Source: Oxalobacteraceae bacterium (GTDB lineage: Bacteria > Pseudomonadota > Gammaproteobacteria > Burkholderiales > Burkholderiaceae_D). Taken from it: a DNA stretch of 64,000 nt. A program made the position numbers and the translations under genes. Location: NCBI GenBank assembly GCA_021298975.1, contig JAJTGC010000001.1, forward strand, positions 19,446 through 83,445. Direction: 5' to 3'. Below the pieces are notes generated by a model. The model did no database searches. It worked only from the letters and a program-made list of their open reading frames with translations, and was not told the DNA's origin. This document shows positions 5,185 through 11,384 of this stretch, piece by piece (positions within the stretch are counted from its first letter, which is position 1; each line of letters begins with the position of its first letter).

Positions 5185-8100
5185 TCAGACCGTCGCTTTT
5201 TCTTTGAGCTTGGCCGATTTCGCTGCAAACATTTCACCTAGTGCGCGCTTGTACTCGGTCGGGAAGACCTTCACAAATTTTGCACGGGCGGTGCTCCATT
5301 CATCCAACAGGGTGCGCGCACGTGTACTACCCGTATGCTTGAAATGACGCTCGATCAGGGCTTTGAGCATCACTTCGTCGGTCTGGCGTTCGCCATTGCG
5401 CGTCAGGCTATGCCAGGCAGACTGCGCAATCGTGGATTCCTGCTCGGATGCTGACAGCACAGCTTCGAGCGTCACCATCGCGGGATTGCACTTCTGCGCA
5501 AAGCTACCGTCTTCGTCATACACATAGGCGATGCCACCGGACATGCCCGCAGCAAAATTTCGTCCGGTGGTGCCGAGGACGGCCACGGTGCCGCCAGTCA
5601 TGTATTCGCATCCGTGGTCACCGGTACCTTCGACGACGGTAACGGCACCTGAGTTACGCACGGCAAAACGCTCGCCTGCAACGCCATTGAAGAAAGCCTC
5701 ACCCGAAATCGCGCCGTACAAGACGGTATTGCCGATGATGATGTTGTCGACCGCGCGACCGCGGAATTCGGTATTGGGTCGCACGATGATGCGACCGCCC
5801 GAGAGACCTTTGCCGACGTAGTCATTGCCCTCGCCGACCAAGTCCAGCGTGATGCCATGCGCAAGGAACGCACCGCACGACTGACCCGCGGTGCCTTGCA
5901 GCTGAATATGGACGGTGTCATCCGGCAGACCTTCATGACCATATTGCTTCGCCACGACCCCAGAGAGCATGGCGCCAACCGTGCGGTTGAGGTTTTTGAC
6001 CGGCGAGATGAACGACACGCTCTCGCCCCGCTCGATCGCCGGCTTTGCCTGTGCAATCAGCTTGTGATCCAGCGCTTTTTCCAGACCATGGTCTTGAGTC
6101 AGCACCTGATAACGCGGCTCGTTGTCGGCCATCTTGGGCATGTAAAAAATCTTGCTGAAATCGAGGCCTCTGGCCTTCCAGTGGCTGACTGCACGTGATT
6201 TGTCGAGCAGGTCAGCACGCCCGATCAACTCGTTGAAGTTGCGAATGCCGAGCTGCGCCATGATCTGACGCGCTTCCTCAGCGACAAAGAAGAAATAATT
6301 GACGACGTACTCGGGCTTGCCCTGAAACTTTGCGCGCAGGACAGGGTCCTGGGTTGCCACACCCACCGGGCAGGTATTCAGGTGGCATTTACGCATCATG
6401 ATGCAGCCTTCCACCACCAGCGGTGCCGTCGCAAAACCGAACTCATCTGCGCCGAGCAGCGCGCCAATCACGACATCACGACCGGTCTTGACCTGTCCAT
6501 CGGTCTGGACGCGAATGCGGGTGCGCAATCCGTTAAGCACCAGCGTCTGCTGCGTCTCCGCCAAACCCAGTTCCCAGGGCGTGCCAGCATGCTTGATCGA
6601 CGACAGTGGCGACGCTCCGGTACCACCATCATGACCGGCGATCACCACATGATCTGCTTTGGCCTTGGCCACGCCAGCCGCGACCGTGCCGACACCGACT
6701 TCGGAGACCAGCTTGACGGAAATGGCCGCCGACGGGTTGACGTTCTTGAGGTCGTGAATCAGCTGTGCAAGATCCTCGATGGAGTAGATGTCGTGATGCG
6801 GCGGCGGAGAAATCAGTCCGACGCCGGGCACCGAGAATCGCAACTTGGCGATGTACTCCGACACCTTGTGGCCCGGTAGCTGACCACCCTCACCGGGCTT
6901 GGCGCCCTGCGCCATCTTGATCTGGATTTGTTCGGCCGAGGTCAGGTATTCGGTAGTGACGCCAAAGCGACCTGAAGCGACCTGCTTGATCTTCGAGCGC
7001 AGTGAATCGCCGTCGAGCAGGGGCAGGTCCACCTCAACTCGATCTTCGCCAATGATGGACGCCAGCGTGTCGCCTTTTTTGATGGGTATGCCGCGCAGTT
7101 CGTTGCGATAGCGGTTTTCATCTTCGCCGCCTTCGCCCGTGTTGGATTTCCCGCCGATGCGGTTCATCGCGATGGCCAGCGTGGCGTGTGCCTCGGTCGA
7201 AATGGAGCCCAGCGACATGGCGCCCGTTGCGAAACGCTTCACGATCTCGCTTGCGGGCTCGACTTCATCGAGGGGTATCGCGTTGGCCGGATCAATACGG
7301 AATTCAAACAGACCACGTAACGTCATGTGGCGCTTGGACTGATCATTGATGATCTGCGCGTATTCCTTGTAGGTGCTGAAATTGTTGGCGCGCGTCGAGT
7401 GCTGTAACTTGGCAATCGCATCGGGCGTCCACATGTGCTCTTCGCCACGCACACGGAAAGCGTATTCGCCACCGGCATCCAGCGCAGTCGCCAGCACGGG
7501 GTCATTGCCGAAAGCGAGCTGGTGCAGTCGCAGTGCCTCTTCGGCGACTTCGAAGACGCCAATGCCCTCGACATTGGAGGCCGTACCTCTGAAATATTTT
7601 TCGACGAGTGATTTGTTGAGACCGATGGCTTCAAAAATCTGGGCACCGCAGTAAGACATGTAGGTCGAAATGCCCATTTTCGAGAACACCTTCAGCAGAC
7701 CTTTGCCGACGGCTTTCTGGAAGTTGTAGATGGCTTTTTCGGGTGACAGGTCACCGGGCAGGCCTTTGGCCATGGCGACCAGCGTATCCATCGCGAGGTA
7801 AGGATGAATGGCCTCGGCGCCGTAGCCGGCCAGCAGCGCGAAATGGTGCGTCTCGCGTGCCGAACCTGTCTCCACCACCAATCCGGCGGAAGTACGCAAA
7901 CCTTTGCTCACCAGATGCTGGTGAATGGCTGAGGTTGCCAACAGCGCCGGGATGGCGACATGATCCACGTCGACCTTGCGATCGGAAACGATCAGTATGT
8001 TTTGGCCCGAGCGCACCGCATCAACCGCCTGCGCGCACAATGATGCAAGGCGGGCCTCAACGCCTTCCTTGCCCCAGGCGGCGGGATAGCAGATATCCAG

Positions 8101-9906
8101 CTCGCAGGATCGGAACTTGCCGCCCGTATGGTCGCTGATATTCCGCAAGCGCGTGATGTCCTTGTAATCAAGGATAGGCTGTGCAACTTCGAGACGCATC
8201 GGCGGGTTGATGTTATTCGTGTCCAGCAGATTCGGCTTGGGTCCGATGAAGGACACGAGGGACATCACCATCGCTTCGCGAATTGGATCAATCGGCGGGT
8301 TGGTCACCTGTGCAAACAACTGCTTGAAGTAGTTGTAAAGCGGCTTGTTCTTGTTTGACATGACTGCCAGCGGCGAGTCGTTACCCATCGAGCCCGTGGC
8401 CTCCTCGGCCGTAATCGCCATGGGCGACATCAGAAATTTCAGATCTTCCTGCGTGTAACCGAAGACCTGCTGACGGTCGAGCAGACTGGTTGTGGTTTCA
8501 CGCGCTTCGGCTTCAACTTTCAGATCGTCGAGCTTGATGCGAACCGAGTCAATCCACTGCTTGTAGGGTTTCGCATTGGCGAAGGTGTCTTTGAGTTCTT
8601 TGTCATCAATGATGCGCCCTGCGTCCAGATCGATCAGGAACATTTTCCCTGGCTGCAGACGCCACTTCTTGATGATCTTGGATTCCGGAATAGGCAGCAC
8701 ACCGCTCTCTGACGCCATCACCACCAGATCGTCATCCGTCACGATGTAGCGCGCAGGGCGCAGGCCGTTACGGTCCAGCGTACCGCCGATATGACGGCCA
8801 TCAGTAAAGGCCATCGCTGCCGGGCCGTCCCACGGCTCCATCATCGCCGCATGGTATTCATAAAATGCGCGGCGATTGTCATCCATGAGCGTGTGGTTTT
8901 CCCACGCTTCGGGGATCATCATCATCATCGCCTGCGCAATCGGGTAGCCGGCCATCACCAGCAACTCCAGCGCATTGTCGAAACAGGCGGTGTCAGACTG
9001 ACCTTCATAGATGAGGGGAAACAGCTTTTGCAGGTCGTCATTGAGGACCGCAGACTTCATCACACCCTCACGTGCACGCATCCAGTTGAAATTGCCTTTG
9101 ACGGTGTTAATTTCCCCGTTGTGCGCGAGCAAACGATACGGGTGCGCCAGCGGCCACTCGGGGAACGTATTGGTGGAGAATCGCTGGTGTACCAGCGCGA
9201 GCGCCGAGATGCAGCGCGGATCCTGCAGATCTTTGAAATAAACACCCACCTGGTCGGCGAGCAGCAGGCCTTTGTAGACCACGGTGCGCGCTGACATCGA
9301 TGGCACGAAGAATTCCTTGCCGTGCAAAAGATCGAGCGCCTGAATCGCATGTCCCGACGATTTGCGGATCACATAGAGTTTGCGCTCCAGTGCATCGGTC
9401 ACCATGATGTCCTGGCCGCGACCAATGAAAATCTGCCGGATGACCGGTTCTTTCTCGGCCACGGTGGGCGACATGGGCATGTCGCGGTTGACCGGCACTT
9501 CGCGCCAGCCGAGCACGACCTGGCCTTCGGCATGAACAGCGCGCTCGATTTCCTGTTCGCAGGCAATTCGCGAAGCATTTTCTTTCGGAAGGAAAACCAT
9601 GCCCACGCCGTACTCACCGGGTGGCGGCAGACCAATGCCCTGCTTCGCCATTTCTTCTCGATAATACTGGTCGGGTATCTGGAGAAGAATACCTGCGCCG
9701 TCTCCCATCAGTGGGTCCGCGCCCACGGCACCACGGTGATCCAGGTTTTTCAGGATCAACAGGCCTTGCTCGACGATCGAATGGCTCTTTTGGCCCTTGA
9801 TGTGGGCTATGAAGCCAACGCCACAGGCGTCGTGTTCGTTTGACGGATCATATAAACCTTGGGCTTGCATCGCAGTACTCCCACAGCCATTGAAAAGGGA
9901 CGACAA
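5185..9906 (-). CDS. gltB: Glutamate synthase large subunit
   Basis: 1573 aa with N-terminal amidotransferase ([11 protein letters not shown]), FMN domain ([28 protein letters not shown]) and C-terminal glxB-like domain. Confidence 0.97.
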
Positions 9907-9944
9907 GGATAGTGCAATGCAAAACGAACAGCAATCGAAAAAAT

Positions 9945-10009
9945 TAGGGTCGGATACCCATTAAATCGCCAATCAAAACCATGCGCAATTAAATAGGGTC
10001 AGATTAATG
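9945..10009. repeat. Pair of short REP-like direct repeats TAGGGTC[G/A]GAT in the gltB upstream region
   Basis: TAGGGTCGGATACCCATTAAAT (9945-9966) and AATTAAATAGGGTCAGATTAATG (9987-10009) share TAGGGTCrGAT and lie between a RAYT-like ORF and gltB. Confidence 0.45.
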
Positions 10010-10041: not shown

Positions 10042-10824
10042 TCAATTGGCTTTTTTCGGCATATCCGCTCTCGGACGTGAGGCGGATCGGGTGGATCCGG
10101 CTTTTGCTGGCGGCTTGACGACCACGCCCTGCCCGACAGTCGCCTTGGGCGGGCGACCGCGCTTAGCCGGCGCCAAACGACGGAGCGTAAGTTTGGCAAG
10201 GCGGCGGCAAAACTCGTCGGATCCCAAAGCCCAGGCTTTTCTGGTGGCCTCCAGAATCTTTTCGCTCAGCGCGCCACTGGCGGGAGATTGGCTGATTTGC
10301 TGATAGGCAGCCTCCCGTTCGAACGGCGTATTGCCCAGCGCCCAGTACGCGGGATGATCGGTGAGCCAGGGTTCTTTGCGATGCCCGACATGATGGCCAT
10401 GACTGGACCACGAGTAGGCGCCGATATCCGACACGAGCCCGCTGCTCACTGGCTGATATTCAATCAAATGCGCACAGGGCACGAAGTACGCAGCCGGCTC
10501 CAGCACCGTGGCACGGAAACGACCTTCCCATAAACTGCCGGTTCGGCCGTAGCGCGCATTGAAATAAGGCACATAGAGGCGACCGAGAGACTGCATCATC
10601 CGGCTCAGACCTGACTCATCGGCCGGCGTAGCGAGCAGCTGCAAGCGGCTCGGCAGCAAAACATAAGCATGAATCGCCACCCGAGACTGTTGGGCAGCCT
10701 GGCGCAGCCAGTCCAGAAATACACGACAGTCCGCCTCATCACGAACGACCAGCTGGTCGTTGTGACCCTGTGCGATCAGATGGTGCAGGTGGTTGGGTAT
10801 GACGAGGCGCGGCAAGCGGGCCAT
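10042..10824 (-). CDS. RAYT/REP-associated Y1-type transposase-family protein with substituted HUH and Tyr residues (probably non-catalytic)
   Basis: RAYT scaffold: MARLPRLVIPNHLHHLI...VAIHAYVLLPSRLQLLATP...RYGRTGSLWEGRFRATVLEP...YSWSSHGHHVGHRKEPWLTDHPAYWALGNTPFEREAAY; basic tail KRGRPPK. Confidence 0.85.
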   Translation of the reverse strand: MARLPRLVIPNHLHHLIAQGHNDQLVVRDEADCRVFLDWLRQAAQQSRVAIHAYVLLPSRLQLLATPADESGLSRMMQSLGRLYVPYFNARYGRTGSLWEGRFRATVLEPAAYFVPCAHLIEYQPVSSGLVSDIGAYSWSSHGHHVGHRKEPWLTDHPAYWALGNTPFEREAAYQQISQSPASGALSEKILEATRKAWALGSDEFCRRLAKLTLRRLAPAKRGRPPKATVGQGVVVKPPAKAGSTRSASRPRADMPKKAN

Positions 10825-10904: not shown

Positions 10905-11384
10905 TCAGAAGGGAATATCGTCATCCATATCGGACAGATTGGGCGCCTGCTTTGAAGGCGCACGCGATGCCGGGGCCGATGGACGCGATTCCGGGGCACC
11001 ACCACCAAAGCTGCCTTCGTCCATCGCAGCACTGCCACCACCCATACCCTGACGACTACCCAGCATTTGCATGGAGTCAGCGATGATCTCCGTCGTGTAT
11101 TTTTCGATACCCTCTTTATCAGTCCACTTGCGTGTGCGAAGCTTGCCCTCGACATACACTTGCGACCCTTTTTTAAGGTACTGGCCGGCAATTTCGGCCA
11201 GCTTGCCAAAGAAGGCAATACGGTGCCATTCCGTCGCTTCTTTTTGTTCACCCGTGGTCTTGTCTTTCCATTTGTCCGTCGTGGCTACTGCAATATTGGT
11301 CATCGCATCACCGCTGGGCATGTAACGTGTTTCGGGATCACGCCCCAGATTGCCAACAATAGTAACTTTATTGACCGATGCCAT
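10905..11384 (-). CDS. ssb: Single-stranded DNA-binding protein
   Basis: [25 protein letters not shown]...; acidic C-terminus DMDDDIPF. Confidence 0.97.

Follow-up and report, generated by a model that had tools for sequence, protein, structure and literature searches.

The window, a stretch of 64,000 nt from a contig of an Oxalobacteraceae bacterium, carries on its minus strand an open reading frame running from 10824 to 10042, which starts with ATG, encodes 260 aa without internal stop codons, and is flanked by ssb and gltB. The features of the locus are as follows.

5185..9870, minus strand: gltB, glutamate synthase large subunit (from the ORF list, with the start taken from the conserved N-terminus and the upstream alignment)
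9906..9934, minus strand: putative gltB promoter (TTGCTG, 17 bp, TATCCT), directly downstream of box 2, proposed from conservation
9942..9954, minus strand: box 2, TCCGACCCTAATT, TIR-type, 49 bp downstream of box 1 (intergenic alignment, box model)
9991..10003, minus strand: box 1, TCTGACCCTATTT on the RAYT/gltB sense strand, TIR-type (intergenic alignment, box model)
10042..10824, minus strand: RAYT/Y1-transposase-like protein of 260 aa, active site lost (R60, Q62, L120, Q124)
10453..10467, minus strand: former Y-x-x-x-N motif, L120...Q124 (ortholog alignment)
10639..10647, minus strand: former HUH motif, R60-L61-Q62 (ortholog alignment)
10905..11384, minus strand: ssb, 80 bp upstream of the RAYT ORF

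The gltB ORF as listed begins with TTG at 9906, and conservation suggests the ATG at 9870 as the true start.

The 260 aa protein matched the NCBIfam model of REP-associated tyrosine transposases (RAYT, NF047646) with E=1.4e-12 and 47.8 bits, which is below the model cut-off of 80. A Pfam search with the protein (P0001) gave no domain match, Y1_Tnp included, though Y1_Tnp was detected in 29/31 members of the alignment, and a PDB sequence search gave a chance match only. The AlphaFold2 model had a mean pLDDT of 84 (core about 95), and its top Foldseek match was TnpA-REP bound to a REP hairpin (PDB 4ER8, E=2.7e-8). Both the Y1-transposase fold and the RAYT core motifs are thus present according to NCBIfam, AlphaFold2, Foldseek and Pfam on the alignment, and the predicted RAYT/Y1-transposase fold is not in doubt. 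Three C-terminal helices were predicted (167–177, 184–196 and 203–212), and no Pfam HTH domain was matched in either the protein or the alignment. The RAYT homolog search found a single copy in the window's own genome (rated 88.6% complete), in which PF01797 had no match.

The RAYT hallmarks missing from this protein are the HUH metal-binding pair and the catalytic Tyr with its Y-x-x-x-N-P context. In the ortholog alignments the two HUH His positions are occupied by R60 (codon 10647–10645) and Q62 (10641–10639), and the position of the catalytic Tyr by L120 (10467–10465), and this assignment is firm because the alignment is at 53–57% identity to orthologs with PNHLHLL...CSRYIELNPV. The ORF and the alignment thereby bear out the original prediction of an intact RAYT reading frame with these three substitutions. 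That prediction did not include the loss of the third metal ligand, the Asn of Y-x-x-x-N-P, which is Q124 (10455–10453) followed by a retained P125. No intact HUH or Tyr motif was found elsewhere in the protein. H12-L13-H14, at the first strand, was considered as a replacement HUH and discounted because it aligns with the PHQPHH found in active relatives. Y123 was likewise discounted as substitute for the catalytic Tyr, since several sister species carry Q or C at this position.

The gene order ssb - RAYT - gltB and an intact ORF were found in 21/21 genomes of the window's genus, in most species of which all four active-site residues are lost. Position 60 is Arg in all 21, encoded by five different Arg codons, and Arg60 has therefore been retained through synonymous change. 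The second HUH His position is Gln or His, the catalytic Tyr position is Leu, Met, Trp or Val in 20/21 and Tyr in the remaining one, and the Asn ligand position is Gln or Leu; as this pattern was found in syntenic orthologs of all 21 genomes, the substitutions are more than chance. Pairwise dN/dS values (Nei-Gojobori, unsaturated pairs) had a median of 0.09 for RAYT in the genus, versus 0.055 for ssb and 0.016 for gltB; dead pairs ranged from 0.05 to 0.28, and the medians of genera with active copies were 0.04–0.15. The RAYT gene is thus faster-evolving than gltB and ssb, yet clearly under purifying selection, and it is not a pseudogene, for which values near 1 would be expected. Among the most strongly conserved sites compared between dead and active members, conservation dropped only at positions 60, 62, 120, 124 and 127, and partly at 113. 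About 45 other positions stay conserved in dead lineages, including MAR-R, Q78, GR-YV--FN, GNTPF-R and the GRP tail, and such a restriction of the loss to the active site is what characterises pseudoenzymes. The proposal of a protein that is catalytically dead, as judged from its residues, and nevertheless maintained is supported by all 21 species, by the dN/dS of about 0.09 and by the preserved synteny, and catalytic death with maintained function is almost certain.

A RAYT homolog was present in 291/295 family genomes, and the four without one (G013, G007, G087 and G159) were also without gltB; G013 (2.2 Mb) has a completeness rating of 100%, and the other three are incomplete assemblies. 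The HUH motif was lost in 63/187 sequences, 53 of these being gltB-adjacent, and the Asn ligand was lost in 62 of the 63 HUH-lost rows versus 7/124 others. In a tree computed with the motif columns left out, which is a quick tree with weak deep branches, the gltB-linked sequences form one group (SH-aLRT 99), and parsimony gave 19 changes of HUH state, 16 of them among gltB-adjacent rows. Both states occur within each of the genera g14, g18, g23, g32, g37 and g40, and at least six losses are therefore independent of the weak deep branches. Active-site loss thus recurs across Burkholderiaceae and neighbouring families, with the second His or the Tyr still present in several dead lineages, and RAYTs outside the gltB-linked clade have, with a single exception, an intact HUH. 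Dead gltB-adjacent RAYT genes are also retained in the small genomes (about 1.2–2.5 Mb) of genus g6 (L157, L160, L163 and L164).

The conserved neighbour of the RAYT gene is gltB, located downstream on the same strand for 150/187 sequences, and all 150 of these gltB-adjacent ORFs are at least 227 aa long. The gene directly upstream is ssb only in the window's genus and a few other genera, such as g30. The original prediction had put forward ssb as a co-expressed functional partner; this was dropped as the key association, since ssb adjacency is not kept across the family and gltB adjacency is. In eight genomes of g32 the dead RAYT gene lies about 12–39 kb upstream of gltB on the same strand. 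A literature search for a gltB-linked transposase found none.

Alignment of the RAYT-gltB intergenic region from the 21 genus members showed two conserved boxes followed by a promoter-like segment. The boxes form a direct repeat with the consensus ACTCTGtCCCYAaTTAA (box 1) and aCTCYGACCCYAaTTAtT (box 2), and next to box 2 the promoter-like segment reads TTGAAc, 17 bp, TATTCT as consensus in many genera; the segment at gltB was not picked up in a promoter consensus scan with a threshold of 9/12. The first box model was regex-trained and set against mononucleotide shuffles, and the cross-check model was trained across groups on intact lineages only, with dinucleotide shuffles. Among gltB-adjacent genomes, the box pair precedes gltB in 51/53 with a dead protein and in 95/97 with an HH-bearing one. 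The model trained on intact lineages found the pair in 21/21 genus members, in 30/32 other dead lineages, and in 16/17 gltB regions where the RAYT gene is non-adjacent or decayed, while gltB regions of other families, without the RAYT clade, gave 0–1/30. The contrast between families with box pair and RAYT clade and those with neither amounts largely to a single phylogenetic event. Of 143 located pairs, 75 had a spacing of 48 bp and 68 one of 49 bp under a model limited to these two values, and an open count placed 72/74 pairs at 48 or 49 bp. Such a spacing does not correspond to an integral number of helix turns, which counts against reading the boxes as an operator. In the g32 dead subclade, gltB retains both boxes and the promoter despite the distant RAYT gene, as expected of a trans-acting partner. 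Only one genome with a retained gltB has a RAYT gene that is clearly a pseudogene (G102). The cores of both its boxes carry base changes, box 1 having three by eye, including one at a C that is fixed elsewhere, and the -35 and -10 hexamers are unchanged; this genome is reduced, and general decay may therefore account for the box changes. G057 lacks box 1 despite an intact protein, the locus being at a contig edge.

The reverse complement of the gltB boxes fits GGGGWSAS, the terminal inverted repeat (TIR) motif of the TIRYTs (PMC3733652), which are thought by Quentin et al. to correspond to subclass 2.1, RAYT group 1 (PMC6006769). No REP hairpins with GTAG were recognised in the aligned flanks, where the conserved elements are TIR-type boxes, so that the ssDNA/hairpin binding of the original prediction stays hypothetical. 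At least 8 box copies per genome (9–37) were found in 12/36 intact-protein genomes and 0/38 dead ones, related genomes not being independent in this count, and intact-protein genomes of g28, g33, g18 and g30 have as many as 37 copies, frequently arranged in inverted pairs 35–48 bp apart. These dispersed inverted boxes make it plausible that the box is recognised by active members, and that it represents the TIR of the gltB-linked RAYT clade. The sequence CYGWCCCYAATT occurs 14–37 times per genome in G028, G033, G056 and G117, often in inverted pairs at the same 35–48 bp distance which resemble a TIR-derived miniature element family. An inverted box is also located about 50–70 bp upstream of the RAYT start in 56/97 active and 16/32 other dead members, and autoregulation in the latter is thus as possible as gltB control; one such inverted box was also seen upstream of the dead gene of genus g6. 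In the window's genus this upstream box is absent in 21/21, and the downstream pair at gltB is kept in 21/21. Loss of the upstream box as a companion of catalytic death holds for this genus and fails in other dead lineages.

The reading we prefer, with a probability of roughly 0.58, is that a Y1 pseudo-transposase was exapted as a gltB regulator via TIR-derived operators. A putative group-1/TIRYT-type RAYT may have been fixed upstream of gltB in the ancestor of Burkholderiaceae and neighbouring families, where its gltB-side terminal repeats would have turned into a two-box operator, namely the direct repeat with its 48/49-bp spacing that immediately precedes the gltB promoter. The protein would have been exapted as a sequence-specific DNA-binding regulator for which cutting was not needed, so that catalysis would have become dispensable and repeatedly lost. 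We infer binding of the protein to the boxes and an effect of this binding on gltB transcription, in either direction. Catalytic loss, purifying selection, recurrence, synteny, box conservation, the TIR match and clade co-occurrence are the computed observations in favour of this reading. The dead, maintained protein of the original prediction is part of it; the box pair and the recurrent loss were not included in that prediction.

Slow decay of pseudogenes pending removal in many lineages would account for the catalytic-site substitutions and for a RAYT gene that evolves faster than gltB and ssb, but it is already contradicted by the dN/dS values far below 1 and the intactness of the 150 ORFs, and the confinement of the loss to the active site and the retention of the gene in the small g6 genomes make it extremely improbable. 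It is nearly as hard to sustain that an unusual nuclease activity was kept or regained, through a HUQ-like metal site or another nucleophile, with DNA still being processed. HUQ motifs are used by some HUH enzymes, and the second His or Tyr survives in several dead lineages, but the first His is Arg throughout the genus, the Tyr is replaced in 20/21 and the Asn ligand is gone in nearly all HUH-lost rows; furthermore, Tyr-to-Phe mutants of TnpA-REP have no activity (PMC8266576).

The main rival to gltB control is the action of a different host factor on the boxes. The protein could be an autoregulatory or structural pseudo-transposase, which binds TIR-type boxes for its own expression or for TIR occupancy, with the adjacency to gltB being historical and the gltB boxes used by that other factor. 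The inverted boxes upstream of many active and dead members are in line with this, as is the position of box 2, which adjoins the promoter-like segment and could thus be used by any host factor; the boxes could also serve another regulator or persist purely as promoter DNA elements. However, the window's genus has lost the upstream boxes and kept those at gltB throughout, boxes and protein clade co-occur, and to our knowledge the boxes match no known nitrogen-regulator consensus, which leaves this explanation unlikely. A domesticated nucleic-acid-binding protein with another job unrelated to gltB, such as RNA-hairpin binding or a role in replication with ssb, would agree with the match of the fold to a hairpin-binding protein (4ER8) and with ssb lying close upstream on the same strand in the genus and adjoining the gene in genera such as g30. 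We consider it rather improbable, as gltB adjacency is conserved across the family and ssb adjacency is not, and as it leaves the gltB box pair unexplained.

Three known systems come closest to this protein. It shares the fold and family core with RAYT/TnpA-REP proteins such as that of E. coli (PDB 4ER8), which are likewise usually low-copy and vertically inherited, but has all catalytic residues substituted, no REP hairpin recognised in its aligned flanks, and a fixed position beside gltB. The likeness to TIRYTs (RAYT group 1/TnpA-Y1 subclass 2.1) extends from the GGGGWSAS match (PMC3733652, PMC6006769) to a possible C-terminal helical extension, here as predicted helices, the lack of REPs reported nearby, and the dispersed TIR-like pairs of active members of the gltB-linked clade, whereas the window's protein is dead and its boxes lie at a host promoter. 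All TIRYTs aligned in PMC3733652 keep HUH and Tyr, and the tree in PMC6006769 excluded proteins without these motifs; surveys which require them, or Pfam Y1_Tnp alone, would miss proteins such as this one. A parallel in kind is TldR, described in the account cited by PMC13418256 (Wiegand et al. 2024) as homologs of TnpB that have lost nuclease activity and work as RNA-guided transcription factors. Both are IS200/IS605-related proteins with repeated independent loss of catalysis and a tie to a host gene, and recurrent catalytic loss under purifying selection was found here as for exapted dead transposases of the TldR kind. In contrast to the TnpB-derived, RNA-guided TldR of that account, the window's protein comes from the TnpA/Y1 side, has no guide RNA in sight, and would read DNA boxes directly. 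That it belongs to a Y1 pseudo-transposase family of gltB regulators, a TnpA-side counterpart of TldR, in which a transposon protein and its end sequences were co-exapted as regulator and operator of gltB, so that catalysis could disappear some 16 times within a single bacterial order, is a proposal we hold at even odds.

The gltB-linked clade bears on the question of why RAYTs persist with low copy number and vertical inheritance. It offers a natural series that begins with active members having dispersed TIR-like pairs, continues with active members lacking such pairs and ends with many members that died independently, and every stage shares one box pair at a single host promoter. A host function of RAYTs thereby becomes directly testable at a named gene, gltB. 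In the g32 genomes L202–L205 the dead RAYT gene adjoins apparent nasT and nitrate ABC transporter genes (names assigned by eye), which, like gltB, belong to nitrogen assimilation.
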